From positions 1 to 64,000 of IMG/VR virus record IMGVR_UViG_3300020129_000672: DNA of 64,000 nucleotides. One strand, given 5' to 3'. A program made the position numbers and the translations under genes. The notes beneath the pieces were generated by a model that was not told the origin of the DNA, made no database searches, and saw only the letters and a program-made list of their open reading frames with translations. Positions within the stretch are counted from its first letter, which is position 1. Every line of letters begins with the position of its first letter. Below are positions 11,883 to 56,641 of this stretch, in pieces. This stretch comes from a virus.

Positions 11883-11928
11883 TGGGTGAATACACCCACT
11901 CTCAGCCAATTATGGGTGAATACACCCA
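11883..11928. promoter_or_regulatory. twin 16-bp palindrome, operator-like
   Basis: TGGGTGAATACACCCA occurs twice exactly, at 11883-11898 and 11913-11928. Each is a 6-bp inverted repeat around AATA, and the copies are 30 bp apart, close to three helical turns. This is the classic look of paired sites for a dimeric repressor. Candidate binders encoded nearby are the HTH protein at 12565 and the LexA-like protein at 13076. Confidence 0.55.
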
Positions 11929-22835: not shown

Positions 22836-23177
22836 ATGACACTCGATGAAATTAAAAAACTGATTAAACTCCATGTTGGTGAATTTGTAGAGTTCACTCC
22901 AACGAACGATCATTCAATTACTTCTTTAGCTCTAGAGTTTGAAAAACAGATCAACCTGACAAAGCACCAGGAACAGGTGCGGCTTGTCGCGGTCTTCAAA
23001 ATCTGGCTCGAAGGGCTGTCGAACAAATTTGCCGGTGACGGCAACATGGATGCCTATAACATCCTGAATTATATTTCAACCCGGGTGGAGCTCATTCTGG
23101 GTGGCCTGCAACAAACGACGGTCGAAGCCCAAGAGATCCCGACCCGGCCGACCTTGCCAGCCCCTCCTCAAGGATGA
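22836..23177 (+). CDS. hypothetical protein
   Basis: The protein has 113 residues, helical, with KIWLEGLSNKFAGDGNMDAYNILNYISTRVELILGGL followed by a Pro-rich tail. It is more AT-rich at its 5' end than its neighbours. No family is recognised. The stop overlaps the next ATG. Confidence 0.6.
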   Translation: MTLDEIKKLIKLHVGEFVEFTPTNDHSITSLALEFEKQINLTKHQEQVRLVAVFKIWLEGLSNKFAGDGNMDAYNILNYISTRVELILGGLQQTTVEAQEIPTRPTLPAPPQG

Positions 23178-23542
23178 AAGCCCTGCACGCCACGCCCCCG
23201 CTCTACCAGCGGATCCAGTTCCTGCAGCTGCCGGAGGCCGAACAGGCGCGCCAGCGGTTCCACAACCTGGTGCGCCTTCGTTGTTGCCCCGTCTGTGCCC
23301 GGCAGGCTGGCCCAGACGGACCGTTCTGCCCATTTCACCAATTCAGAGTGGCCGAACTGGAGCGCGAACGCCATGAGCGGCTCCGGCTGGCCGGCCGTTG
23401 CCAAGTCTGTGAGAGGCAGATGCGCCACCGCTCGTGCCCAGAGTGCAATCGAACGAGCCGAACGATCGACAGCTACCACGGGCTGCCCGTCGCCCCGTCC
23501 GTCCTTGAGCAGCTGATGCGGCAACAGGCGGAGGAGAGTTGA
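23174..23542 (+). CDS. Cys-rich zinc-binding hypothetical protein
   Basis: The protein has 122 residues. Two clusters, CCPVCARQAG...CPFH and CQVCERQMRHRSCPEC, look like two zinc knuckles separated by a charged helix (VAELERERHERLRLAG). It may bind DNA or RNA. It is the last protein gene before the structured non-coding region. Confidence 0.65.
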   Translation: MKALHATPPLYQRIQFLQLPEAEQARQRFHNLVRLRCCPVCARQAGPDGPFCPFHQFRVAELERERHERLRLAGRCQVCERQMRHRSCPECNRTSRTIDSYHGLPVAPSVLEQLMRQQAEES

Positions 23543-23560
23543 CAACCGGCGATGGGAAGC

Positions 23561-24525
23561 CGACAGTCAGCTCGTCAGTTTTACGACTGACTGTGCCGAC
23601 TCCCGATTCATTGCTCGCCGCATTAGATCTCCATTGGCACGTCCGGCCCGGGTGAGAAATCGCCCGGGCCGAATCATTTTCTTGACCCTCACTGTTTCGG
23701 AACGACTCATCCGTCGGCGAGCAAGGTGAATAGGGAGTATCAAAAACCCCATTATTCACCTGGCCGGCCCTCGGCTCTGCCAGGAGACTTGGCAGGTTCT
23801 TTGACAGGCGGTTGTCTGTCGGTCGGTCAATCCAGCTCGGACGGGTACCGGATTTCCGGTCAGGTTGGTAGCTAGTGACCTGTTGCTGGCCTCAATTATT
23901 TGGAGCCCGTACGGGTTGGATTGACCGACCAGGCAGGTCTGTGTGACGAACGGTCAGGCGCCGAAAGGTGCCACGGCTGACTTAAAATTAGTCGGAATAC
24001 CCTATGATCGTTCGTCACACAGACCTGCCAGTAAGTTAGGTCGGCCGCCCGAGGTGGCGCGCCGGCTGACTCCTTCCCGCTGTAGCACCAGGGTGTGTAA
24101 CGATCAGCGGGAGTCACGTAGAGTGATCCACCCAGTCGGGCGAAAGCCCACAACGGGCCAGAGATGAGACGGTGTCCGGGCGAATAAGAACTTGAAGGAG
24201 CGCCCGCAAGAATCTGGTCCACCCGCGAAAGCAGCGAGACCCCAGCATTGGGGCACGGATCGAAGGCTGTCCGAAAGGGCGGCAGTTCGAGTTGAATCAG
24301 CAAACAAGTCCCAGAGACAACCAACAGTCAGAGAATGGGTGAGTACGGTGGCGGCGCTAGCGGGCCGGGAGTAATCCTACCTGTATGCTTGGGATGTTTC
24401 CCGCCATCAGAAGACCAGGAACCTACCACCAGGGATTTTGAGGACAAATCCCTAGGCCAACCGCGTGCGTCGTACGGCTCGAAGTCGATCCGGCAGCAAG
24501 GGAATGAGAGTAGAGGAAAGTTTTT
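23561..24525 (+). ncRNA. large highly structured non-coding RNA candidate (about 0.96 kb)
   Basis: No coding sequence is credible here. Many long perfect stems fit one rightward RNA. Stems: 23563-23570/23587-23594 (8 bp); 23611-23620/23715-23724 (10 bp), enclosing 23645-23652/23663-23670 (8 bp); 23724-23732/23753-23761 (9 bp); 23777-23782/23790-23795; 23821-23833/23918-23930 (13 bp); 23932-23956/24005-24029 (25 bp, one G-U). Hairpins 23957-23972, 24138-24149 and 24267-24282 have GAAA tetraloops. Further stems are 24177-24182/24201-24206, CCCCA/TGGGG at 24240-24253, and 24431-24438/24446-24453. G-U pairs in several stems favour the plus strand. Size, density and phage location recall GOLLD and ROOL RNAs. 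I could not match either, so it may be a new class. Confidence 0.65.
23932..24029 (+). repeat. 21-bp perfect inverted repeat closing a three-way junction
   Basis: Bases 23932-23952 pair perfectly with 24009-24029, and four more pairs (one G-U) extend inward to 23956/24005. Inside are a GAAA-capped 6-bp hairpin (23957-23972) and a CTGAC/GTCGG stem (23977-23981 with 23991-23995). It is the longest stem in the window. Confidence 0.7.
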
Positions 24526-25002
24526 ATGTGTAGAATTCAGTTAACCAGAGGAAAGTTTGCCACTGTTGACCAGCGTGACTTCGATTACCTGAATCAATTT
24601 CGTTGGTACTGTTTAGAGATGGATCACACTAATTACGCCGCACGATCGGTTAAAGATCCAGAAACAGGGAAATGGCAATTGATCCTGATGCACAGAGACA
24701 TTTTAGGGGTCGACCGATCCATTAAGATCGATCACAAAAACGGAAATGGACTTGATAATCAGCGAAAAAATCTGAGGCCAGCTACCAGTTCACAAAATGG
24801 TTGTAACAGGTTAAAATCACGCTCGAACAAAAGCGGATTCAAGGGGGTCTATTGGCATAAAAGGATCGGAAAATTTAGGTCTGAAATAAGGCTTTTAGGA
24901 AGGCGATTCCATCTTGGTTACTTCAATACGGCGCTATCTGCTCACGCTGCTTATTGCGAAGCGGCCAATCGTCTCCATGGAGAATTTGCTAGAACATCGT
25001 AA
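24526..25002 (+). CDS. HNH homing endonuclease with AP2 DNA-binding domain
   Basis: The protein has 158 residues. MHRDIL (H56), IDHKNGNGLDNQRKNLR (H70, N85 region) is the HNH_3 core. Residues about 103-155 (SGFKGVYWHKRIGKFRSEI, LGYFNTALSAHAAYCEAAN) are an AP2 domain. This pair defines a common free-standing phage homing endonuclease that nicks cognate DNA and spreads with flanking sequence. It is more AT-rich than its surroundings, a sign of transfer. GAGGAAAG lies just upstream of the ATG. It may have inserted beside the structured RNA, or the two may travel together. Confidence 0.9.
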   Translation: MCRIQLTRGKFATVDQRDFDYLNQFRWYCLEMDHTNYAARSVKDPETGKWQLILMHRDILGVDRSIKIDHKNGNGLDNQRKNLRPATSSQNGCNRLKSRSNKSGFKGVYWHKRIGKFRSEIRLLGRRFHLGYFNTALSAHAAYCEAANRLHGEFARTS

Positions 25003-25080
25003 CCGTAATCAGGGTGATCAGCCTGATGGGTAATCCACCCCATTCCATGGTCAGCCAAGATAGCGGAATATCTGACCGCT

Positions 25081-25170
25081 ATGATGTTCAACATGTATCT
25101 CGGAATCATGCTGGCGCTGACGATCGTCGTCGGCCTGACTGATACGATGGAGGCGCTGACAGTCGATTGA
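25081..25170 (+). CDS. tiny membrane peptide candidate
   Basis: This encodes 29 residues, MMFNMYLGIMLALTIVVGLT followed by DTMEALTVD, one transmembrane helix with an acidic tail. It lies in the 220-base gap after the HNH gene. No strong ribosome site is visible. It resembles tiny phage membrane peptides, but its length limits certainty. Confidence 0.35.
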   Translation: MMFNMYLGIMLALTIVVGLTDTMEALTVD

Positions 25171-25174
25171 TCTG

Positions 25175-25190
25175 TTCCATCAGGATGGAA
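25175..25190 (+). repeat. TTCCAT/ATGGAA stem-loop element, copy 5
   Basis: A 6-bp stem (25175-25180 with 25185-25190) has the loop CAGG, followed by CCTTGAAC at 25199-25206 in the position of CTTGATC in other copies. It is 33 bases before the gene at 25223. Confidence 0.55.
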
Positions 25191-25222
25191 AGGTTGGCCT
25201 TGAACGACCAGCCAGAAAGGCG

Positions 25223-25774
25223 ATGGTCGGGCTGATGAAAACCAAGTTGATCACCGCTCTTCGCCAATCAGCGGCGGCTGTTCGTAACCAGACGTTTGGC
25301 TATGAATGGTCGAACATGAAGTCCTGCAACTGTGGAGTCGTTGCCTGCGCGCTGCTGGGTTACGACCAGGAAAAATTAAATACCTCTCTTCCAACTAAGC
25401 CGCAATACAACTGGCTGAAATTTGTTGGTGAATATTGCCCAGTTACGGGCCTGCCAGAACATCTGGTTTTGCGAGCGATGACCGATGCTGGCCTTTCTCC
25501 GCGCGATATCATTGAACTTGAGGCGATGAGCAATCAACAGGTTTTGGCCCGCATGCCCGTGCAATACCAGACGAAGATCGTTGGCGGTTGGTGGGCGATG
25601 TTGTTCGGCCGTACGCGTGAAGTAAAACAACCTCGGCCGTTTCATTACACCAATCGTCAAGATCTCGTGCTGTACCTTGAGGCCTGGGCAGACCTGTTGG
25701 AGGAACAGGCGGATCCTCTTCGTCAGCCGGCCCGTCGGGACGATCCATTCATGCAGGCGATAGGGAGAAATTAA
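25223..25774 (+). CDS. hypothetical protein
   Basis: The protein has 183 residues (an alternative ATG at 25235 gives MKTKLITALR). The first half (LRQSAAAVRNQTFGYEWSN, then CNCGVVACALLG) resembles phage proteins with a helix plus CGTxxCALG pattern. The second half contains PVTGLPEHLVLRAMTDAGLSPRDIIELE. No function is assigned to the family. Confidence 0.65.
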   Translation: MVGLMKTKLITALRQSAAAVRNQTFGYEWSNMKSCNCGVVACALLGYDQEKLNTSLPTKPQYNWLKFVGEYCPVTGLPEHLVLRAMTDAGLSPRDIIELEAMSNQQVLARMPVQYQTKIVGGWWAMLFGRTREVKQPRPFHYTNRQDLVLYLEAWADLLEEQADPLRQPARRDDPFMQAIGRN

Positions 25775-28868: not shown

Positions 28869-29579
28869 ATGTTTAACACCCGTATTAGCCCGCCACGTGA
28901 ACACGTTCCTCCGGGACTTCAAGTTGGCCGCTTCACCGCCCTGATCGACTGTGGAACTCAACAGGAATCGATTAAGGGGAAAACCAAGGAACTACCGATC
29001 CTTAAAATCTCCGCCGAGTTTCCGGCGCACGTTTACAAAACAGGCGAACTCAAAGGTCGGCCGTTGGTCATAACCCGCAAGTTTACCAACTCGATGAGCG
29101 AGAAGGCTAACCTCTATCACTTTATCGCCGGTTACCGCGGTAAGGACTTCAACACCGAAGAGGAGATCAAAGCGTGGTTGCAGGACACGTTTCATACGTT
29201 GGTTGGGCGGGTGGCGAAATTCACCGTCGTCCACAAGACGCTGGCAAAGGGAGACATTTTTTCGACCTTTGACTCCGCCGCTCAGGAGGCTGGTATGGTT
29301 TGCCCTCCGGCGATCAACAAGCCGGTGCTATTCAGCATGTCGGACATTCGGATTTGGAATCCGTCAACGGCCGAGCGGTCGATCCTGCCCGAGCCTTACA
29401 AATCGATCGTCGCCAAATACGGTACGATGCTTGAAGTTTTCAAGGGCCTGCACGAAAAAGCTCAGGAGTACATCAGCCAAAGCCCGGAGTTCAAAGCCAT
29501 CAACGCCGGTCGTTCGATCGACCGTTCGGCCGTTCAGGCTGATGCGCCATTATCAGGCGACGACGACGTTCCGTTCTGA
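28869..29579 (+). CDS. single-stranded DNA-binding protein-like
   Basis: The protein has 236 residues. The body is a phage ssDNA-binding-like fold by context (LPILKISAEFPAHVYKTGELKG, LVITRKFTNSMSEKANLYHFIAGYRGKDF). The C-terminus SGDDDVPF mimics the acidic DDDIPF tip with which SSB recruits partner proteins. It is first in the replication-recombination block. The OB fold itself cannot be shown from motifs. Confidence 0.7.
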   Translation: MFNTRISPPREHVPPGLQVGRFTALIDCGTQQESIKGKTKELPILKISAEFPAHVYKTGELKGRPLVITRKFTNSMSEKANLYHFIAGYRGKDFNTEEEIKAWLQDTFHTLVGRVAKFTVVHKTLAKGDIFSTFDSAAQEAGMVCPPAINKPVLFSMSDIRIWNPSTAERSILPEPYKSIVAKYGTMLEVFKGLHEKAQEYISQSPEFKAINAGRSIDRSAVQADAPLSGDDDVPF

Positions 29580-37647: not shown

Positions 37648-38018
37648 TCTGGAAGGTTCTCCCGCAGCCAGCACTTCTTCTTCGGCAACCGGGCGGCCAG
37701 GCGGAGGTTGCACCAGCAGCCTAACTGTTGATCGCTCTGATCATCCACGAACTGCCCGGGCGTGCCGCAGAAGCCCCGATCGTTCATCCAGCAGTCGTCA
37801 CAGACGGCCAACCGTCGGACGGTCTCCGGTGTGTCACGCGTTAGGAACGCCCGTACGGCCATCAGGGAGGCCCTTAGGAGGCTCGTACAGGCGTCTTTCA
37901 CCCCCCACCGCGACTTCCATGCCCTCCACACTGTCGGCGTGCTGGCGGCCGCCCTAAGCAATTCTAGTGATGGTTGTCGCCTGAGGAGTGAGTGGGATGC
38001 TAAAAATTCCGATTTCAT
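37629..38018 (-). CDS. Cys-rich DUF6171-like protein, start uncertain
   Basis: The frame encodes up to 129 residues. The C-terminal half (RLAVCDDCWMNDRGFC, GCWCNLRLAARLPKKKCW) resembles the Cys pattern of DUF6171, small zinc proteins found next to phage terminases. The ATG at 38018 lies 65 bases inside the terminase gene. A start nearer residue 54 (MAVRAFLTRD) is possible. It is the last gene of the leftward terminase pair. Confidence 0.6.
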   Translation of the reverse strand: MKSEFLASHSLLRRQPSLELLRAAASTPTVWRAWKSRWGVKDACTSLLRASLMAVRAFLTRDTPETVRRLAVCDDCWMNDRGFCGTPGQFVDDQSDQQLGCWCNLRLAARLPKKKCWLRENLPDQDEGW

Positions 38019-39432
38019 ACATCAGCATGTAGGTCAGTGCGTCAAAAATATGCTTCAGCGGATCTTTCGGGTCGATGTCGCCGTCAGAGTCGGTTTCGAT
38101 CTGTTCCAGCATTTGGATGATGCAGGTGCAGCGCGCGCTGATGAACAGCCGATTGTTGTTCAGCATCCGCTTCAGCAGCTCCTGCCGTTTGAACACACTG
38201 CCTGCCCCCTTCTTGATCCCCTTGAGCAGGATCCGACCGTCGGTTCCCAGGCGAATTTCTCTGGCGACCGAGCTGTCGGCGGCCGATGAATAGTTGAGGG
38301 ACGAACTGTCGGACCAATGGCGCCAACGGAGGTAGGGAGTATTTTTGCCCTCCATGTGATTTTCCCAGAAATCCATTTTGGACGCAAATTCCCGCCCAAA
38401 CCGGCCGGCCGAATAGTTGACGCCCGTTCGGACATGCTCGTCGATCACGTAGATCTGCTGCGTGCCGTCTTCGACCATCACTTTGCAGCCGATGACCGCC
38501 GCGTGATTCATCGCGTCCCCCATGTCCCAGCCGGTCGGGAATTCCGAACAGCCCTCGGGCGGCATCAGGGCCGACCTCATCCGCGGATCGGACGGCGCGA
38601 GGTCGCCAATCACGTGGTGCTCCGCCCGGAACTGATCTTTGAAGGCCGTTCCCTCCCGGCTGGCCACCCATTCACCGCGGTAGTTCCGGGCCAGCTCGAT
38701 TTCATCGTGACTGTTGTTCTCCCGGATGCTGTCTTTTACCGACTGCGGAATGAACTGATTGTCCTCCAGAGTGAACGCCACTTCCATCAGGTGGGGCTTT
38801 ATATCCGGTGGGTAATTGCCATCCCGGTCGCGCAGGAATTTTTGGTACAGCCAGCTCTTTCGGCCGGTCCGGGGTGGATTGCAGTCGAGGAAGATCTCGT
38901 GCTTGTGGTCCGGGATATGCCAGATCCGGAGCTGATCGCTCAGCTTGTTCAGCACGTCCTCGCTGTCCCACCGGTCGGCCTCCACCAGGTAGAAGCCGCT
39001 GAATCGACTGTCCTTGAACTTCTCGACCGCCCGGTCGGTCTCCAGCGTGTGGAGCTGCACCTCGGATTGGCCGCCATGCTTGTTCCAAATCCGAAAATAC
39101 CGCATTTTAGTGTCACGTACGAACGATGGTCTGACCGCGTATTCGCATCCATCAAGCTCCTTGAACCATTGGTCCTCGAGGATCCCATAGGGCCCAACAA
39201 TATCGTCCCAAACACCGTTGACCGACAGCTTCAATCCTTTCACGACCACGCCAAACACCGCGCCATTATTGAGCCAGCAGTGGTTGATCACCATATTCTG
39301 GATCGTATTACTCTTGGTCGATCGCCTAGGACCGTGCAGAAGGGTGATTCGTCGGTGGTTTAGGTAGACCTCAATTCCCTTGTCTGACATGCGGGGCACC
39401 CAAAACCGCTGCTTGTTCCGGCTGATAATCAT
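37954..39432 (-). CDS. terL: large terminase subunit
   Basis: The protein has 492 residues. LLHGPRRSTKSN (about 31-42) is the Walker A variant of phage terminases, GFYLVEAD (about 150) the Walker B, DMGDAMNHAAVIG (about 298) the first nuclease Asp and HIFDALTYM (about 465) a late one. It packages DNA into proheads using ATP and cuts concatemers. It is transcribed leftward while the head genes run rightward from 39469, leaving only 36 bases for two divergent start regions. Confidence 0.95.
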   Translation of the reverse strand: MIISRNKQRFWVPRMSDKGIEVYLNHRRITLLHGPRRSTKSNTIQNMVINHCWLNNGAVFGVVVKGLKLSVNGVWDDIVGPYGILEDQWFKELDGCEYAVRPSFVRDTKMRYFRIWNKHGGQSEVQLHTLETDRAVEKFKDSRFSGFYLVEADRWDSEDVLNKLSDQLRIWHIPDHKHEIFLDCNPPRTGRKSWLYQKFLRDRDGNYPPDIKPHLMEVAFTLEDNQFIPQSVKDSIRENNSHDEIELARNYRGEWVASREGTAFKDQFRAEHHVIGDLAPSDPRMRSALMPPEGCSEFPTGWDMGDAMNHAAVIGCKVMVEDGTQQIYVIDEHVRTGVNYSAGRFGREFASKMDFWENHMEGKNTPYLRWRHWSDSSSLNYSSAADSSVAREIRLGTDGRILLKGIKKGAGSVFKRQELLKRMLNNNRLFISARCTCIIQMLEQIETDSDGDIDPKDPLKHIFDALTYMLMYEIGIFSIPLTPQATTITRIA

Positions 39433-47283: not shown

Positions 47284-47791
47284 GGGGTTCAAAATTCTGG
47301 TCGCCCTGGCGGCCTTGTTGCTGGTTGCCGCCGTTCCGCAAAAGACGGTGGTGATTCCGCCGGTTATTACCGTCACGCCGGCGACAGGCGCACCACCAAC
47401 CCAAGTGTCGGTCAAACCGACGACCATAAGGTGGGGAAATTATCTTTGGGCCGGCGCGCCCGATGCGGCCCCGAAATTCGTGGAGTTTGATCTGGCAGGC
47501 CGAAGTCCGTTGTTCGTCGATTGGAATCGGTCGGTGGCGACCAATCTGGTTGGAGACTATCTTTTCAAGTCAAGGCGGGGAGCCCGTCAGGTGTTTTGGG
47601 TGGCTGATCAGTTGCTTAAAAATCGACAAACCACATTTACCAGCAGTGGATTTCCCGTCGGGTTTGATCCCGGGGACGATCAGGCACACCAATCGCTGAC
47701 CATTCAGAAAGTGCCGGGTAAGGTCTACGTAACGTCCGATCGCAATGGCGGGAGTTATGTGGTGAGTGTAAAGCAAACACCTAATCGATGA
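47273..47791 (+). CDS. signal-peptide protein sharing the RWGN/SDRNGGSY domain
   Basis: The protein has 172 residues. Residues 6-21 (FKILVALAALLLVAAV) are a signal peptide or anchor. The rest is a close paralogue of the preceding protein's C-terminal domain (RWGNYLWAGAPDAAPKFVE, GARQVFWVADQLL, FDPGDD, SDRNGGSYVVSV). The domain has no name that I recognise. A signal peptide on a domain shared with a virion-region protein is unusual. Confidence 0.7.
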   Translation: MSHKGFKILVALAALLLVAAVPQKTVVIPPVITVTPATGAPPTQVSVKPTTIRWGNYLWAGAPDAAPKFVEFDLAGRSPLFVDWNRSVATNLVGDYLFKSRRGARQVFWVADQLLKNRQTTFTSSGFPVGFDPGDDQAHQSLTIQKVPGKVYVTSDRNGGSYVVSVKQTPNR

Positions 47792-50526
47792 AGACCGTTC
47801 GTCTGTTCTTTTTTTTTCTCCTGATTTTTCGGGCGTTTCCGCAAGCGACTCCCCCGCAGTATCCCTATCCTGATCCGCTTCCAATTTCGGGCGACATCCC
47901 GTCCCTCCATAGCCTCAAGGTAACGAAGGCTATCACCCCTACGGCCTATGAGGATGAGCGGCCGGTCGTGTGGGATGATTTTGTTGGTGGTGGTTATCAC
48001 ACGTGCCTCAACGGAACAGAGCGCGATAATATACTGCAGGGCCGCCGGAAGGAGGGGATGCTCGTTTGGGTGGCGTTCGACAATCATACATACCGTTTGG
48101 CGTCGGACCTGACGACCTGGACCGATCTGGGGATCCTTGCCGCCGGTGGGAGTGTCACCACGATCTACACCGGAAACGGCACATTGGCAGGAAACAGAAC
48201 GATCACCGGATCGAACTTCAATCTCGATCTGGTTGGGCTTGGAAATTTTAGCGCGCTGGCCAATACATCGATCACACTGGCGGCGCCGACCATCACGCTC
48301 AACGGTGGGAGTTTTACTCGGATCAACAACAGCGGGCCCTATCCCTTTCTGTTCGCCGCCGCTCCGTCAGTCGCCGGATCAACCCATCAATTGCTGGCCC
48401 GCAATCCTTCGACCGGGGAAGTGACATTCACACCCGACGCAACGATCGGTGGGTCGTCCGGTGTTTATCGCGGCGTGACGTCTGGGACGCCCGGATTTTG
48501 GGTGGCCGCCACTTCTGCACTGACCCCTCCCTACAGTAGCGCCAGCCAGCCGCCAGAGGCCACTGTGGCGGTCCTGAAGTTCCCGTCCAACTCGGTTGGC
48601 AACGATACGCTCCAGTTGGGCGACAGCACGACCGGCATCGCGATCAAGCGAAAGGACGGAAGCGCCGTTCAGGCGGATGACATCACGGCCGGTCAGTACA
48701 TTCTGTTTACCCGGGCGGGCACCCTATCTGGCGCCCACTGGACGTGCGAGTCGTGTGGCCAGGGAGGATCACCCTCACCGGACGTCAACGGCGTGGTGTC
48801 GGTCGATACCATTTCGGAGCTCATCAATTCGACGGCCAACGTGGTTATCACTCGCGGGTACTACACCATAGGTGACGGCGGTCACGGAGCTTATCGGCTG
48901 GATACTGCGGCGGTTGACGCTACGAACACGGTGACGACCTTCGAGGCGGCGACCGGTCGGTACTTCCTGATGCAAAGTGGATCGATCAGCGCCTTGCAGG
49001 CGGGGGCGCCGACTGATGGAACGACCGATGCCGGTCCGTACCTTCAGGCGCTGCTCGATGCCTGTCCGAACCTGACGGCTCGGATTGATCCCTTTCCCTA
49101 CCGGGTAGTCGGACAGCTGAACCCACCAGATGACGTCAAGGTGATTGCCCGCGGTGCGACTCTCACGATCGAAACGACGTCTGAGTGCGGAGTGGCTGTC
49201 AGTTCTAATTTCATCTGGGACGGCGGAACGGTCGTTGATGCTGCTCAGGACGGGGGATCGTCCGATAATGTACACTGTCCGTTTCGATTCGGGGATTATA
49301 GCGGAGTATCCAATGCTGGGGTCAGCAATTCGACGATCCGAAATGTTACTTTTTACTCAACTGGCTATGACGGAGTCGGGGCGCTTGTCACTCAAAATAG
49401 CCATAACATTACGATTGAACATTTTGAAATCCCGAACAACAGTTCGATGGGTGGCGGGATCGAAGTGCACTGGGGATATGTGACGTCCGGAAATGCCGCG
49501 TTAGGTACCAGGCACCCGCATGGAGTGAAGGTCAGCCAGGGACATATTGGAAACCTCACTCACTCCGATTCGGCCGGTCTGATCGTCTCCGCCAGTTACA
49601 GCCTGCAGTACGACAATGTGACGATCGACCAGTGCCGGTATCCGATCTTTGCCGTCTGTGGTGATTTTGGGTTTCATTACTCGGGCTTTCAGGGGCAGCA
49701 ACTTGGTTCGGTTGTATATCGGACTGTCACCTGTCTCGATTCATTGTTGGCCGGTGCGTACGTCCGAGGCTTGGATTCCGACTCGATTCAGCGGACGGTC
49801 AATTACGTGATCGACAGCTGCACTCTAATCGGCCCGAACGCCGGGGCCGGTTTGGGCGGCCTGTATCTCGATAACGTCCGGAACCTGACGGTCCAGAACT
49901 CGGTTATCTCCGTTCATCAATATGGGACGGTCCTGACCAACGGGTGTTCAAATATCGGTCTGATCGGAAATCTTTTCACGACCAACGCACTGGGTGGGAT
50001 CGTCCTATCTGACCCGAGTAGTAGTGGGGTGACCGTCAGGGGTAATCGGCTGCAGAACAATTGTGCCAGCCTGAGTGGCACTAATGCGGCGGCCATCAGA
50101 ATCGTTGCTGGCAGCAACCACCGGATCATCGATAACGACATTGGAAACCCAATTACCGAGGCCAACCAGGAGGTGGGCATTCTGTGTATTCCGCCGGCCA
50201 GCAACATTACGATTACGGGCAATAACGTGATCAACGTGAAGGGTGGAGGAGTTAGCGAAGGTTACTATCTTGGTAATGCTGCAGACTTTGGTCATCTCTG
50301 GCTAGTATCTGGAAATCAATCCAACTCAACTACTCTGATGGCCGTGCCGCAGAATCTCCCGTTCTTGGTCAGGGGTAAGTACCGAACTTTTGCGGGCACC
50401 ACCACACCGAGCGTTGGGACATTTATCAAGGGAGATCGTGTGGAGTTCAATGAAGCGACTTCTACGCCGTTTGCCATTATCTGCACGACTGGCGGATCAA
50501 GCGGGAGCTGGGCAACAATTTACTGA
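47788..50526 (+). CDS. fibre/spike-like protein with signal peptide and beta-helix
   Basis: The protein has 912 residues. MKTVRLFFFFLLIFRAFPQ is a signal-peptide-like start. The next about 70 residues (PQYPYPDPLP, SLHSLKVTKA, PVVWDDF) form a module shared with the protein at 53462. Residues about 330-870 show parallel beta-helix repeats (SNSTIRNVTFYS, SHNITIEHFEI, VRNLTVQNSVI, GVTVRGNRLQNN), like pectate-lyase-type phage spikes that bind or degrade polysaccharide. Catalytic residues cannot be assigned. Confidence 0.75.
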   Translation: MKTVRLFFFFLLIFRAFPQATPPQYPYPDPLPISGDIPSLHSLKVTKAITPTAYEDERPVVWDDFVGGGYHTCLNGTERDNILQGRRKEGMLVWVAFDNHTYRLASDLTTWTDLGILAAGGSVTTIYTGNGTLAGNRTITGSNFNLDLVGLGNFSALANTSITLAAPTITLNGGSFTRINNSGPYPFLFAAAPSVAGSTHQLLARNPSTGEVTFTPDATIGGSSGVYRGVTSGTPGFWVAATSALTPPYSSASQPPEATVAVLKFPSNSVGNDTLQLGDSTTGIAIKRKDGSAVQADDITAGQYILFTRAGTLSGAHWTCESCGQGGSPSPDVNGVVSVDTISELINSTANVVITRGYYTIGDGGHGAYRLDTAAVDATNTVTTFEAATGRYFLMQSGSISALQAGAPTDGTTDAGPYLQALLDACPNLTARIDPFPYRVVGQLNPPDDVKVIARGATLTIETTSECGVAVSSNFIWDGGTVVDAAQDGGSSDNVHCPFRFGDYSGVSNAGVSNSTIRNVTFYSTGYDGVGALVTQNSHNITIEHFEIPNNSSMGGGIEVHWGYVTSGNAALGTRHPHGVKVSQGHIGNLTHSDSAGLIVSASYSLQYDNVTIDQCRYPIFAVCGDFGFHYSGFQGQQLGSVVYRTVTCLDSLLAGAYVRGLDSDSIQRTVNYVIDSCTLIGPNAGAGLGGLYLDNVRNLTVQNSVISVHQYGTVLTNGCSNIGLIGNLFTTNALGGIVLSDPSSSGVTVRGNRLQNNCASLSGTNAAAIRIVAGSNHRIIDNDIGNPITEANQEVGILCIPPASNITITGNNVINVKGGGVSEGYYLGNAADFGHLWLVSGNQSNSTTLMAVPQNLPFLVRGKYRTFAGTTTPSVGTFIKGDRVEFNEATSTPFAIICTTGGSSGSWATIY

Positions 50527-51944: not shown

Positions 51945-52121
51945 ATGTCTCTAGGATTATGCTTTTGGATTTTGATGATGTTATGGCTTGTGTTTGGACT
52001 TTGGTCTAACTGGCCAGCCACTGGATCATCTGGAATTCGACCGTTGGGTGGAACCTTGTTACTATTTTTTGTAATTTTTATACTTGGATGGGCTCAATTT
52101 GGGCCTCCTGTTCATCGGTGA
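51945..52121 (+). CDS. small two-span membrane protein
   Basis: The protein has 58 residues. MSLGLCFWILMMLWLVFGLW and a second segment (GGTLLLFFVIFILGWAQFG) are transmembrane. This FWILMxLWLVFG...GWxxFGPP pattern recurs in small phage proteins of unknown role beside lysis genes. The gene is AT-rich and fills the gap before the GIY-YIG gene. Confidence 0.75.
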   Translation: MSLGLCFWILMMLWLVFGLWSNWPATGSSGIRPLGGTLLLFFVIFILGWAQFGPPVHR

Positions 52122-52123
52122 CT

Positions 52124-52963
52124 ATGACCGGAATATACATGATTAGGAATACGATGAGCGGTAGACAATATGTCGGATCTGCGTTGAACATACATCAACG
52201 GTGGCATTCTCATCGATCTTTGCTTTCCAAAGGAAAGCATCACTCGGTTACTTTGCAGCGTTCATGGATAAAACATTCTCCCGAGGCGTTTTTGTTTGAA
52301 ATATTGGAGCAGGTTGAGGATGCCAACCAACTTGTTCCTCGTGAGCAGTTCTGGATCGACAAACTTAACTCAGCTTGCCCGCGTACTGGATTCAATATAT
52401 CACCAACGGCTGGAAGCCCGCTTGGAGTAAAGCACTCTTTTGAAACTCGTGCCAAGATGTCAGCAATTAGAAAAGGAGTAAAGTTTGGGCCACAAAGCGA
52501 CGCTCACAAAGCCGCGTTGAGAAAGTCGAGACTTGGAACAAAGCATTCGCTTGCAACTCGATGTAAAATGTCAGCAGCGCGAAAGGGTGTTCCAAAACCT
52601 CCGTTTAGCGAGGATCACAAAGCTGCAATGAGCTTAGCAAGGTTACGGTACGAAAGCGATACGGGAAGAACGGCTATAAGAAACAAATCGGATCATATGC
52701 GTGAGATGGTTAGGGCATCTAAAATTAAGCGTTATTCCACACCAGAAGGGATTGAAGAATTAAGATCTATGGCCATAAAACGGTGGGCAATTAAAAGATT
52801 ATCAGGAGAACCGCTTGGCCGTCCGATGTCTGATGAAACAAAGCTTAAATTAAGCATTGCTGAGAAAGGAAAAATGACAGACCAACACAAAGCTGCAATC
52901 GCGGCAAGCAATCGAAGACGATCAACTTCAAATCACGCATTCGGTCCACCGATCCATAACTAA
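52124..52963 (+). CDS. GIY-YIG homing endonuclease with NUMOD3 repeats
   Basis: The protein has 279 residues. GIYMI and YVGSA (residues 3-20) form the GIY-YIG core, with REQFWIDKLN carrying the Glu. C-terminal NUMOD3-type repeats (LGVKHSFETRAKMSAIRKG, LGTKHSLATRCKMSAARKG, SEDHKAAMS) bind DNA. It is distinctly AT-rich against GC-rich neighbours, a sign of recent insertion. The lysis-like cluster may be its landing site. Confidence 0.9.
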   Translation: MTGIYMIRNTMSGRQYVGSALNIHQRWHSHRSLLSKGKHHSVTLQRSWIKHSPEAFLFEILEQVEDANQLVPREQFWIDKLNSACPRTGFNISPTAGSPLGVKHSFETRAKMSAIRKGVKFGPQSDAHKAALRKSRLGTKHSLATRCKMSAARKGVPKPPFSEDHKAAMSLARLRYESDTGRTAIRNKSDHMREMVRASKIKRYSTPEGIEELRSMAIKRWAIKRLSGEPLGRPMSDETKLKLSIAEKGKMTDQHKAAIAASNRRRSTSNHAFGPPIHN

Positions 52964-53340: not shown

Positions 53341-53465
53341 AGACCAAGAAGTTAAAGAAGCGTCGACCGGCTGTTCAGCGGGATATCCCAAAGCCGGTTC
53401 AACCTGGAACGATTCCGCCGTCGACCCCGATTGATCCGGATAATCCTAAGAAAGAAATTGTATGA
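53337..53465 (+). CDS. tiny Pro/Lys-rich protein
   Basis: This encodes 42 residues with a Lys-rich start (MKTKKLKKRR) and a Pro-rich tail. It is ATGA-coupled to both neighbours, which is the main support for its reality. The function is unknown. Confidence 0.5.
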   Translation: MKTKKLKKRRPAVQRDIPKPVQPGTIPPSTPIDPDNPKKEIV

Positions 53466-56400
53466 AAGCTAAATATCTATTTTTAATTTCAATGCTGCTG
53501 ATGACCGCACTGACGGTCGTTGGGCAGATCACGCCACCGCAGTACCCGTATCCGGATCCGCTGCCGGCCTCTGGTGATATTCCTAATCTTCACAGTCTGA
53601 AGGTGACAAAGGCGCTGAGCACAACCGCCTATGAGGATGAGCGTCCAGTGGTGTGGGATGATTTCATTGGTGGTGGTATGCGATCGGTCGGTTCGACGAA
53701 CGAGCGGAATGCGATTGTTCAAGGTCGACGGAAGGAGGGAATGATGGTGATGGTGAAGTCTGTAAGTCCGGATACCAATGCTTTTGGACTTTACATGCTT
53801 CTGAAGGGGATCAGCAACACCAATTGGTACAAGATCGCTGACATCACGACGACCAACGGTTTTAACATACCGTCCCTGAAGTCGGTGAATATCTTTAACA
53901 GCGACGGTCAGTTGACGACCAACCGATTGCTGAGTGGCGTTGGGACGTATTCGCTGGGTCTGGCGGGACTCACGGGGTTCAACACGTCGGCCGATAGTTC
54001 TCTAATACAGGCAAACAACCAGAATGTGGTTGGGCTTAATAACCTGACACTAGCGTCGCTCGATCAACTTGATTTATTGGCGCCAAACATATCGATCACC
54101 AGTTCGAACAGTTTTTTGTCGCTCGACCATAACTCAACAACGGTCGGTGCCTATGGTACTAATGGTCTGATTATATTAACTCCGGCAGTTCATGCGACTA
54201 CCGCCACTGCCGGGCAGGTCCTGACGTTGATCGACACGAATGGGATTGCTGATTTTGCAACGATCACCGGTGGAACAAACGTCTTTAACATCACGTACAC
54301 CACGAACTACGTGAATGATAACTTCGCCAACACCGACCTGACGTTCACGGGGAACCGGACGCATGATGCGGCGGGGAATAGTTTAGCTATTGATAACATT
54401 TCTACTCTTCAATTATTTGGATCAAGTTTGGCTCAAATTAGATTTCCTTTTATTCAAGTAGACTTGTCCGGAGGAGGAGAAGGAGAAGGATTGTCAATTG
54501 CTAATTCTCCAAATATATCAATAGATGGAGATGGAATGTTCAACGGAGGATTTTTTGTTGGGTCTGGTACTCCAATGTATGGAATAACTCTCGCCAGTAG
54601 TGGCGATGTTATTTCTCTTGACGTCGATACAACGCAAGGAATAGCATTTAAGAACAAGCAAATCCATGATGGTGTCGCCACTCTAGGTCAGGTTTGGACA
54701 CTAACGAACGTCACTACTGGGAAAGGTGTTTGGGCCAACCCGCCCGCCGGACAGAACTTCGCGAATGCGGATTTGACGGCGACTGGTGATAGATACCACG
54801 ATTTCACTGGGTATCGCTTAACAATTAACAGCCCTCGCGGTTTTTCAGTAAATTCTATTGATGACACTTTAAGTATTGGTTCTAACTACGAATTAGATAT
54901 TTCAACTCCAGATGTTAATAACACAGCGTTGGTTGGCCAATACCTTCAGCTTCAAACTGCTGACGCGGGTGCTGTGGAATACCAAACCATCTACTTCAAA
55001 GGCACCGCAACCGACTCCGGTGGCGGAGCGTTCGTTGCCGCAACGGCCTCAATCGTTCCGGCCTACAACGATTCGTCTGATCCGCCGGAGTTCATGCAGT
55101 TCTACATGAAACCGACGTCCGATGCGGTGGCTGATAGTCAACTTCAATTAGGTGACAGTGGAAGTCCTCATTACATAACACGTAAGGATGGCGTGACGCA
55201 CCTGGCTGATGGTGATTTCAAAGCTGGCGCGACGATCATGTTGACGATGGTCGATAGTGGGGCAGGCGCTCATTGGGTGTGCGAGAGTTGTGGAGGTGGC
55301 GGTGGACAGAACATAGCCAACGCCAATCTTACATTTGATGGTTCTCACACAACCGATGCTGCCGGTTATGATTTCAGCTTAAATAATGTCGCTAATCTTA
55401 GTCTTGGAGGTTCTAGCTCAATATCTGCATCTTTGGGCGGAGGTGTTCAAGCGCAAATTAGCAGTTCGGCCGCGCAATTCCTAATCGTTACAAATACCAT
55501 TCAGATGAATACTCTGACTGGAGACATATATATGGTAGATCAGGATGTATATGGCGGTAGTTCAACTAATGGAATGGTGTTGACGATGATTGATCAAACA
55601 ACCGGTAAAGTGGGATTTAGGAATGCGTCTGGTGGCTCATCAACTAATTTTGCAAACGCCAACCTCACAGCGACCGCCAGCCGGGTCCACGATTGGGCGG
55701 GCCACAATCTGACGATCGAGAATCTGCTGTCGTTCACGATGAGCGATCTTACTGGATCATACATTCAGGTCGGGCCCGCCATTTATCTTTCTAACGGAGC
55801 TGGCACGAGCTTTATCAACATGACGGACAGTGAGACGGAGATTGGTGGAACCAGCACGAACGGTATCAGGCTATTTTCCAAGGGGGTCAATAATGCCACG
55901 GTATCCACCAACTGGGTGTGGACGTTGCTGAACGCCGCGACGGGCGCCGGTGAATGGGTGGCGGGCAGGAATATGTTCGATGCAAATGGAACACTGGCGG
56001 GGAATCGCGTGGTTTCTGGCGGTGGTCATAGCCTTACCTTCCAAACCGCGCTCTCTGATTTTAATGTGCTGGCGACGAATGTCATTTCCCAGGCGAGCTT
56101 GAACAACACGATTAATGGCGCATTGATCGGGATGACCGCCAGTTCGTCGGTGACGGTCAATACGCCACTTTTCACAATCAACAACAGTAGCGCCGATGAC
56201 TTCCTTTTTACCTCGACGCCTAATGACGGTACGGACGCCGATCATACGCTCGAACGAAACCCATCGACGGGCGAGGTGCGGTGGAATACCGGCCGGTTTG
56301 TCTTTCCGCGGACGGGCGTCCCGTCGGTCGCCGCCGGTACGGGTGCTGGTACTGGGCCGACCGTTACGCTCGTCCGTCAAAGTGATTCGGCGTTCACCCT

Positions 56401-56641
56401 CAGTGTCATTCCCGGATCGACGCCGGCTGTCAATGCGACGGTTGCGACCGTGACGTTCGCCAGCGCCTATGCGGCGGCCCCTCATTGGTCGCTGGCGGCC
56501 GGTAATGCAGCGACCGCTCTACTGTCGGGCAACAGCGCCTGCTACGGTCAATCGACGACCACCACCTTTGTGTTGAAGAGCGGCCCGACGGCGCTTACTC
56601 AAAGTACGACCTACCTTTTTGAAGTGATAATCGTAAAGTAA
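53462..56641 (+). CDS. large modular fibre-like protein with signal peptide
   Basis: The protein has 1059 residues. A signal-peptide-like start (MKAKYLFLISMLLMTALTVV) is followed by the PQYPYPDPLP/SLKVTKA module shared with the protein at 47788. Five imperfect repeats of the FANxDLTxTGxRxHDxxGxxL type begin near residues 288, 433, 618, 730 and 838. A CESCGGGG module (about 604) and an RNPSTGEV module (about 930) also occur in the 47788 protein. AT-rich stretches (about 54380-54700, 54800-54960, 55320-55560) interrupt GC-rich sequence, suggesting module exchange. Confidence 0.75.
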   Translation: MKAKYLFLISMLLMTALTVVGQITPPQYPYPDPLPASGDIPNLHSLKVTKALSTTAYEDERPVVWDDFIGGGMRSVGSTNERNAIVQGRRKEGMMVMVKSVSPDTNAFGLYMLLKGISNTNWYKIADITTTNGFNIPSLKSVNIFNSDGQLTTNRLLSGVGTYSLGLAGLTGFNTSADSSLIQANNQNVVGLNNLTLASLDQLDLLAPNISITSSNSFLSLDHNSTTVGAYGTNGLIILTPAVHATTATAGQVLTLIDTNGIADFATITGGTNVFNITYTTNYVNDNFANTDLTFTGNRTHDAAGNSLAIDNISTLQLFGSSLAQIRFPFIQVDLSGGGEGEGLSIANSPNISIDGDGMFNGGFFVGSGTPMYGITLASSGDVISLDVDTTQGIAFKNKQIHDGVATLGQVWTLTNVTTGKGVWANPPAGQNFANADLTATGDRYHDFTGYRLTINSPRGFSVNSIDDTLSIGSNYELDISTPDVNNTALVGQYLQLQTADAGAVEYQTIYFKGTATDSGGGAFVAATASIVPAYNDSSDPPEFMQFYMKPTSDAVADSQLQLGDSGSPHYITRKDGVTHLADGDFKAGATIMLTMVDSGAGAHWVCESCGGGGGQNIANANLTFDGSHTTDAAGYDFSLNNVANLSLGGSSSISASLGGGVQAQISSSAAQFLIVTNTIQMNTLTGDIYMVDQDVYGGSSTNGMVLTMIDQTTGKVGFRNASGGSSTNFANANLTATASRVHDWAGHNLTIENLLSFTMSDLTGSYIQVGPAIYLSNGAGTSFINMTDSETEIGGTSTNGIRLFSKGVNNATVSTNWVWTLLNAATGAGEWVAGRNMFDANGTLAGNRVVSGGGHSLTFQTALSDFNVLATNVISQASLNNTINGALIGMTASSSVTVNTPLFTINNSSADDFLFTSTPNDGTDADHTLERNPSTGEVRWNTGRFVFPRTGVPSVAAGTGAGTGPTVTLVRQSDSAFTLSVIPGSTPAVNATVATVTFASAYAAAPHWSLAAGNAATALLSGNSACYGQSTTTTFVLKSGPTALTQSTTYLFEVIIVK

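Follow-up and report, generated by a model that had tools for sequence, protein, structure and literature searches.

We begin with the question that the locus itself raises: what is encoded by 983 nt (23543-24525) that lie between two genes of an unclassified phage and hold no convincing gene? The window considered here is the whole 64-kb stretch of DNA that was analysed, and it is contained in a 77,210-base virus record. Upstream of the gap is a small zinc-ribbon-like gene (23174-23542) that ends in a stop codon at 23540-23542; downstream are an HNH/AP2 homing-endonuclease-like gene and then an open reading frame (ORF) with its own start at 25223 and a plausible ribosome-binding site. The flanking genes are all rightward and appear complete, with none visibly interrupted, and their completeness is consistent with an independent RNA gene. 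The GC content of the stretch is about that of the phage. There is no second copy elsewhere in the 77,210-base record, no target duplication is seen in the flanking sequence, and no sigma-70-like promoter is seen upstream, judged by a consensus that may not be the host's.

Does the stretch code for protein? A preliminary description, made from the sequence alone, had pointed to almost 1 kb without a gene, and hexamer statistics derived from 26 of the phage's own genes agree with it, with one caveat. Real genes have a mean score of 0.29, against -0.31 for spurious ORFs, whose 95th percentile is -0.04. In the stretch itself, most ORFs have scores around zero or lower, and nearly all lie far below the phage genes; 23896-24324 (minus strand) and 23943-24167 (plus strand) reach about -0.01, just over the spurious 95th percentile. 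The caveat is a 69-codon ORF (24335-24544) in the 3' part, which overlaps the start of the HNH gene and has a coding-like score of 0.163, above the spurious 95th percentile. It has no Pfam match and sits in a purine-rich stretch, and purine richness alone raises hexamer scores; we keep it as a possible small gene and not as a gene call.

The predicted folding of the stretch is summarised in Table 1. The whole 983 nt reaches -459.7 kcal/mol (z = -10.5 against dinucleotide shuffles), and none of 62 other 983-nt windows is as stable on the plus strand. Most of this excess stability comes from two adjacent Y domains (23821-24029), which fold at -134.5 kcal/mol against a control mean of -69.2 (sd 11.8), an energy that 0 of 251 plus-strand controls reach. 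When the Y domains are kept and the remainder is shuffled, the native energy remains 5.6 sd lower than that of the shuffles. The two domains have a common topology and unrelated sequence: in both, the stem runs without a linker into a hairpin, followed by one unpaired base, a second hairpin and 10-12 bases. Their stems are also the two longest inverted repeats in the 64-kb window among those with arms within 150 nt (23821-23845/23906-23930, 25-nt arms, 88% complementary; 23932-23956/24005-24029, 25-nt arms, 96% complementary). The stems that had been described, and their coordinates, are real. Elsewhere in the window, a 19-nt inverted repeat (29366-29384/29516-29534, 95% complementary) is coding and lies near the end of the gene 28869-29579.

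Table 1. Predicted RNA features of the gene-free stretch and the adjoining HNH/AP2 gene.
Feature	Position	Strand	Basis or detail
Gene-free stretch, read as a large structured RNA; RNA ends not fixed	23543-24525	+	fold z, control windows, GAAA enrichment
12-bp hairpin ACAGUCAGCUCGU/ACGACUGACUGU	23563-23594	+	predicted fold
12-bp GC-rich hairpin with GAAA loop; terminator-like, followed by AATCATTTTC	23644-23671	+	
Long imperfect hairpin; arms include GGUGAAUA/UAUUCACC	23711-23774	+	
8-bp hairpin CUGCCAGG/CUUGGCAG	23777-23795	+	
Y domain 1: three-way junction closed by a 25-bp stem	23821-23930	+	
Y domain 1, inner hairpins	23847-23860, 23862-23892	+	linkers 0, 1, 12 nt
Y domain 2: three-way junction closed by a 25-bp stem	23932-24029	+	
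Y domain 2, inner hairpins	23957-23972 (GAAA), 23974-23994	+	linkers 0, 1, 10 nt
Hairpin AGUUAGGUCGGCCGCC/GGCGCGCCGGCUGACU	24034-24071	+	
8-bp stem UCCCGCUG/CAGCGGGA	24075-24112	+	
GAAA-capped hairpin	24135-24151	+	
8-bp helix GGGCCAGA/UCUGGUCC around a purine-rich internal loop and hairpin	24155-24220	+	mean pair probability 0.99
Candidate 3' three-way junction: CGGAUCGA/UCGAUCCG, GAAA hairpin 24266-24283, 9-bp helix	24256-24492	+	
HNH/AP2 homing-endonuclease-like gene, 158 aa	24526-25002	+	foreign composition

On either side of the Y domains the stability is lower. The first 278 nt (23543-23820) have a z of about -5 on both strands, which are equally stable. The last 496 nt (24030-24525) have a z of about -2 and a stability that is ordinary for their GC content and for phage DNA, with 37 of 78 control windows at least as stable. 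The earlier picture of a stretch filled with structure is therefore overstated as regards the last ~500 nt. The long-range pairing energy (-35.2) is no better than the shuffle mean of -36.1, so a single nested global layout is unsupported, and the fold of lowest overall energy is best taken as one candidate among many. The 8-bp helix of the candidate 3' junction (24256-24263/24485-24492) has a rival pairing in the global fold, and the 5' arm of the hairpin at 24034-24071 can pair instead with 23974-23985. We also considered an RNA that continues past the HNH gene; this is unsupported, as 25003-25222 pairs with the region no more strongly than shuffled sequence does.

The next question is whether the tetraloops and the strand point to an RNA. 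Counting GAAA-capped hairpins with a stem of at least 4 bp, we find four on the plus strand of the stretch and none on the minus strand. Shuffles have a mean of 0.08, with four reached in 0 of 2000, and other plus-strand windows of the phage have at most one each; the preliminary description had counted at least three such hairpins. Two of the four are in the 3' half, where they are the strongest evidence for folding because the total stability of that part is by itself uninformative. As for direction, 23821-24029 is 29 kcal/mol more stable on the plus strand than on the minus strand, a difference that 1 of 251 control windows equals or surpasses. The preliminary description had argued for a rightward RNA from G-U pairs; in a strand-symmetric count, G-U and A-C oppositions stand at 9:3 (p = 0.066), which leans to the plus strand without being significant, and the rightward direction is better carried by the Y-domain energy and by GAAA caps that occur on the plus strand only. 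In composition, 24113-24525 is skewed towards purines (A 27%, T 16%) to a degree that 5 of 622 control windows attain. As a prediction from single-sequence statistics, a large, rightward, tetraloop-rich RNA encoded by the stretch is well supported.

Is such an RNA known from elsewhere? A cmscan of the window gives no match at gathering scores and, at E <= 10, only subthreshold matches, mostly to eukaryotic miRNA and snoRNA models; a miRNA or snoRNA identity is rejected, the scores being far below gathering and reflecting long hairpins. The Rfam models whose use had been suggested at the outset were run singly and none matches at E <= 10: GOLLD (RF02032) and HEARO (RF02033) in the record, each with a control that was detected, and group I (RF00028, catalytic core P3-P8/P7) and group II (RF00029, domain V/VI) introns in both window and record, with detections in several control genomes. 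The ROOL model (RF03087) is also unmatched at E <= 10; it was silent in every control genome, so this negative is weaker and rests mainly on cmscan.

We looked for homologues of the stretch with blastn against phages and plasmids, with exact sequence patterns taken from its 3' part against IMG/VR and GTDB genomes, with back-translated segments of its sense and antisense ORFs against GTDB, and in 388 genomes from the phylum of an Akkermansia locus (a guess at the host from an impression of TN-rich protein). None is found, in the pattern search among the matches listed; all matches are at chance level by nhmmer or inspection, in collections from which very near records may be left out. When the small upstream protein and the likely portal, terminase and capsid-region proteins serve as queries, no sister phages emerge. 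The structural proteins, which follow the terminase, match hardly any PHROG, and neither the phage collection nor IMG/VR yields a relative of them; the phage is therefore highly diverged, and since these proteins are equally without relatives, the absence of RNA homologues says little about age or conservation.

Several other features of the window deserve mention. The terminase large subunit (37954-39432, minus strand) is weakly recognisable and lies inside a long rightward gene block. The long proteins encoded at 47788-50526 and 53462-56641 are 45% identical in N-terminal and other segments (BLASTP 4e-40) and are likely duplicated virion or tail-type proteins; between these paralogues is a second homing-type gene (52088-52963), of the GIY-YIG type with NUMOD3 repeats. 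A near-palindrome, TGGGTGAATACACCCA, has two exact copies (11883-11898 and 11913-11928) 30 bp apart, and five matches with up to 3 mismatches against 0.39 expected; the copies are near the junction of leftward and rightward gene blocks and look operator-like.

We turn our attention to the HNH/AP2 gene, for which phrog_99 and the AP2 domain of Pfam are the matches. At about 43%, its GC content differs from that of the phage genes, its hexamer score of 0.008 is the lowest of the gene set, and its codon use is unlike the phage's. The 80 relatives of the gene from IMG/VR reach no more than about 55% identity over the best segment, and none of them has a similar RNA upstream or beside it; in 50 HNH-bearing viral records no homologue of the stretch was found. 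On these relatives, a conserved unit of RNA and HNH gene is rejected. Because the relatives lack the RNA, the GC content and codon use differ and no gene is interrupted, the gene is best read as a free-standing foreign homing endonuclease that settled beside the RNA and not as its partner, and it is probably outside the RNA system.

Which explanation, then, accommodates these observations? The one we prefer, with a probability of roughly 0.45, is a stand-alone large folded phage RNA with a structural or scaffolding role, GOLLD- or ROOL-like in its action without being assigned to either. The main rival is a cis-acting intercistronic region, made of terminator-like and processing hairpins and giving no free-standing RNA product, which would serve to terminate, cleave, protect or attenuate the rightward transcript of the operon. 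We regard it as possible, if rather unlikely. The operon setting with its rightward genes, the terminator-like sites at 23644-23671 and 23776-23796 and the missing long-range support, with structure residing mainly in local hairpins, favour such a leader or processing region. The 25-bp stems, which have the length of RNase III substrates, would suit it, as would the alternative pairing 23974-23985/24036-24047 that competes with local hairpins. However, the terminator-like sites are not enriched (4 against 3.4 in shuffles), and for a phage region with this role a length of 1 kb is large. The GAAA enrichment and the three-way junctions favour the stand-alone folded RNA, four tetraloops and two junctions being more elaborate than a cis-acting region needs.

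Mobile phage introns classically combine GAAA tetraloops with an adjacent HNH gene, and both are present here. A self-splicing group I or II intron, diverged or decayed, together with its homing gene is nevertheless improbable: neither intron model matches although the controls were detected, no gene is interrupted (the upstream gene has its stop, the downstream ORF its own start and plausible ribosome-binding site), and no domain V-like match occurs downstream of the HNH gene. HEARO, the IsrB-associated RNA, resembles the stretch in lying immediately upstream of an HNH gene and differs in its unmatched model and in its protein, which here is a 158-aa HNH+AP2 enzyme and not IsrB. More doubtful than the intron are DNA-level palindromes (an origin, packaging or recombination site) or mobile-element remnants, with RNA folding as a by-product; the concentration of long inverted repeats and the equal stability of the two strands in 23543-23820 would fit, but the Y domains strongly prefer the plus strand, the GAAA caps are confined to it, and the stretch is a single copy with no flanking target duplication seen. 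The least likely explanation is a diverged member of GOLLD or ROOL, which the preliminary description had brought to mind; the likeness is one of size, GAAA loops and phage setting only, and neither model matches, singly or in cmscan. GOLLD is, like the stretch, phage-borne, about 0.8-1 kb long and rich in stems, with GAAA loop(s), and it is often found beside tRNA genes, of which the 64-kb window has none. Its covariance model, which describes the conserved 3' region, is unmatched, and the ~410-nt 3' half seen here is a coincidence of size only. The GOLLD env-38 construct, at 833 nt (PMC12286853), is near the stretch in size. ROOL is likewise a large ornate phage or prophage RNA; the stretch is longer than ROOL and without tRNAs, and the silent controls weaken the negative from the ROOL model.

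Returning to the stand-alone folded RNA, we propose that the stretch is transcribed rightward into a large non-coding phage RNA, up to ~1 kb long and with a tertiary fold. Its core would be the two tandem Y domains, with single hairpins and a 3' part rich in purines around them. The GAAA tetraloops probably dock into helices through A-minor contacts and would give a compact RNA, which may act in trans as a particle with a structural or scaffolding role, comparable to GOLLD and ROOL, and may form oligomers. GOLLD and ROOL form RNA-only cages whose function is unknown; the GOLLD cage is homo-oligomeric, and GOLLD expression goes up at lysis (PMC12286853). More tentatively, the RNA could represent a new class of large tertiary-folded phage RNA, built on tandem three-way junctions and GAAA docking, unrelated to GOLLD, ROOL and the introns, and belonging to a phage lineage for which the collections searched contain no relatives. 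Few large structured RNAs are known from phages. If an unrelated RNA of similar size and style is indeed encoded here, this would suggest that such RNAs arose more than once, and this phage would offer a new system to probe what phages use large RNAs for.
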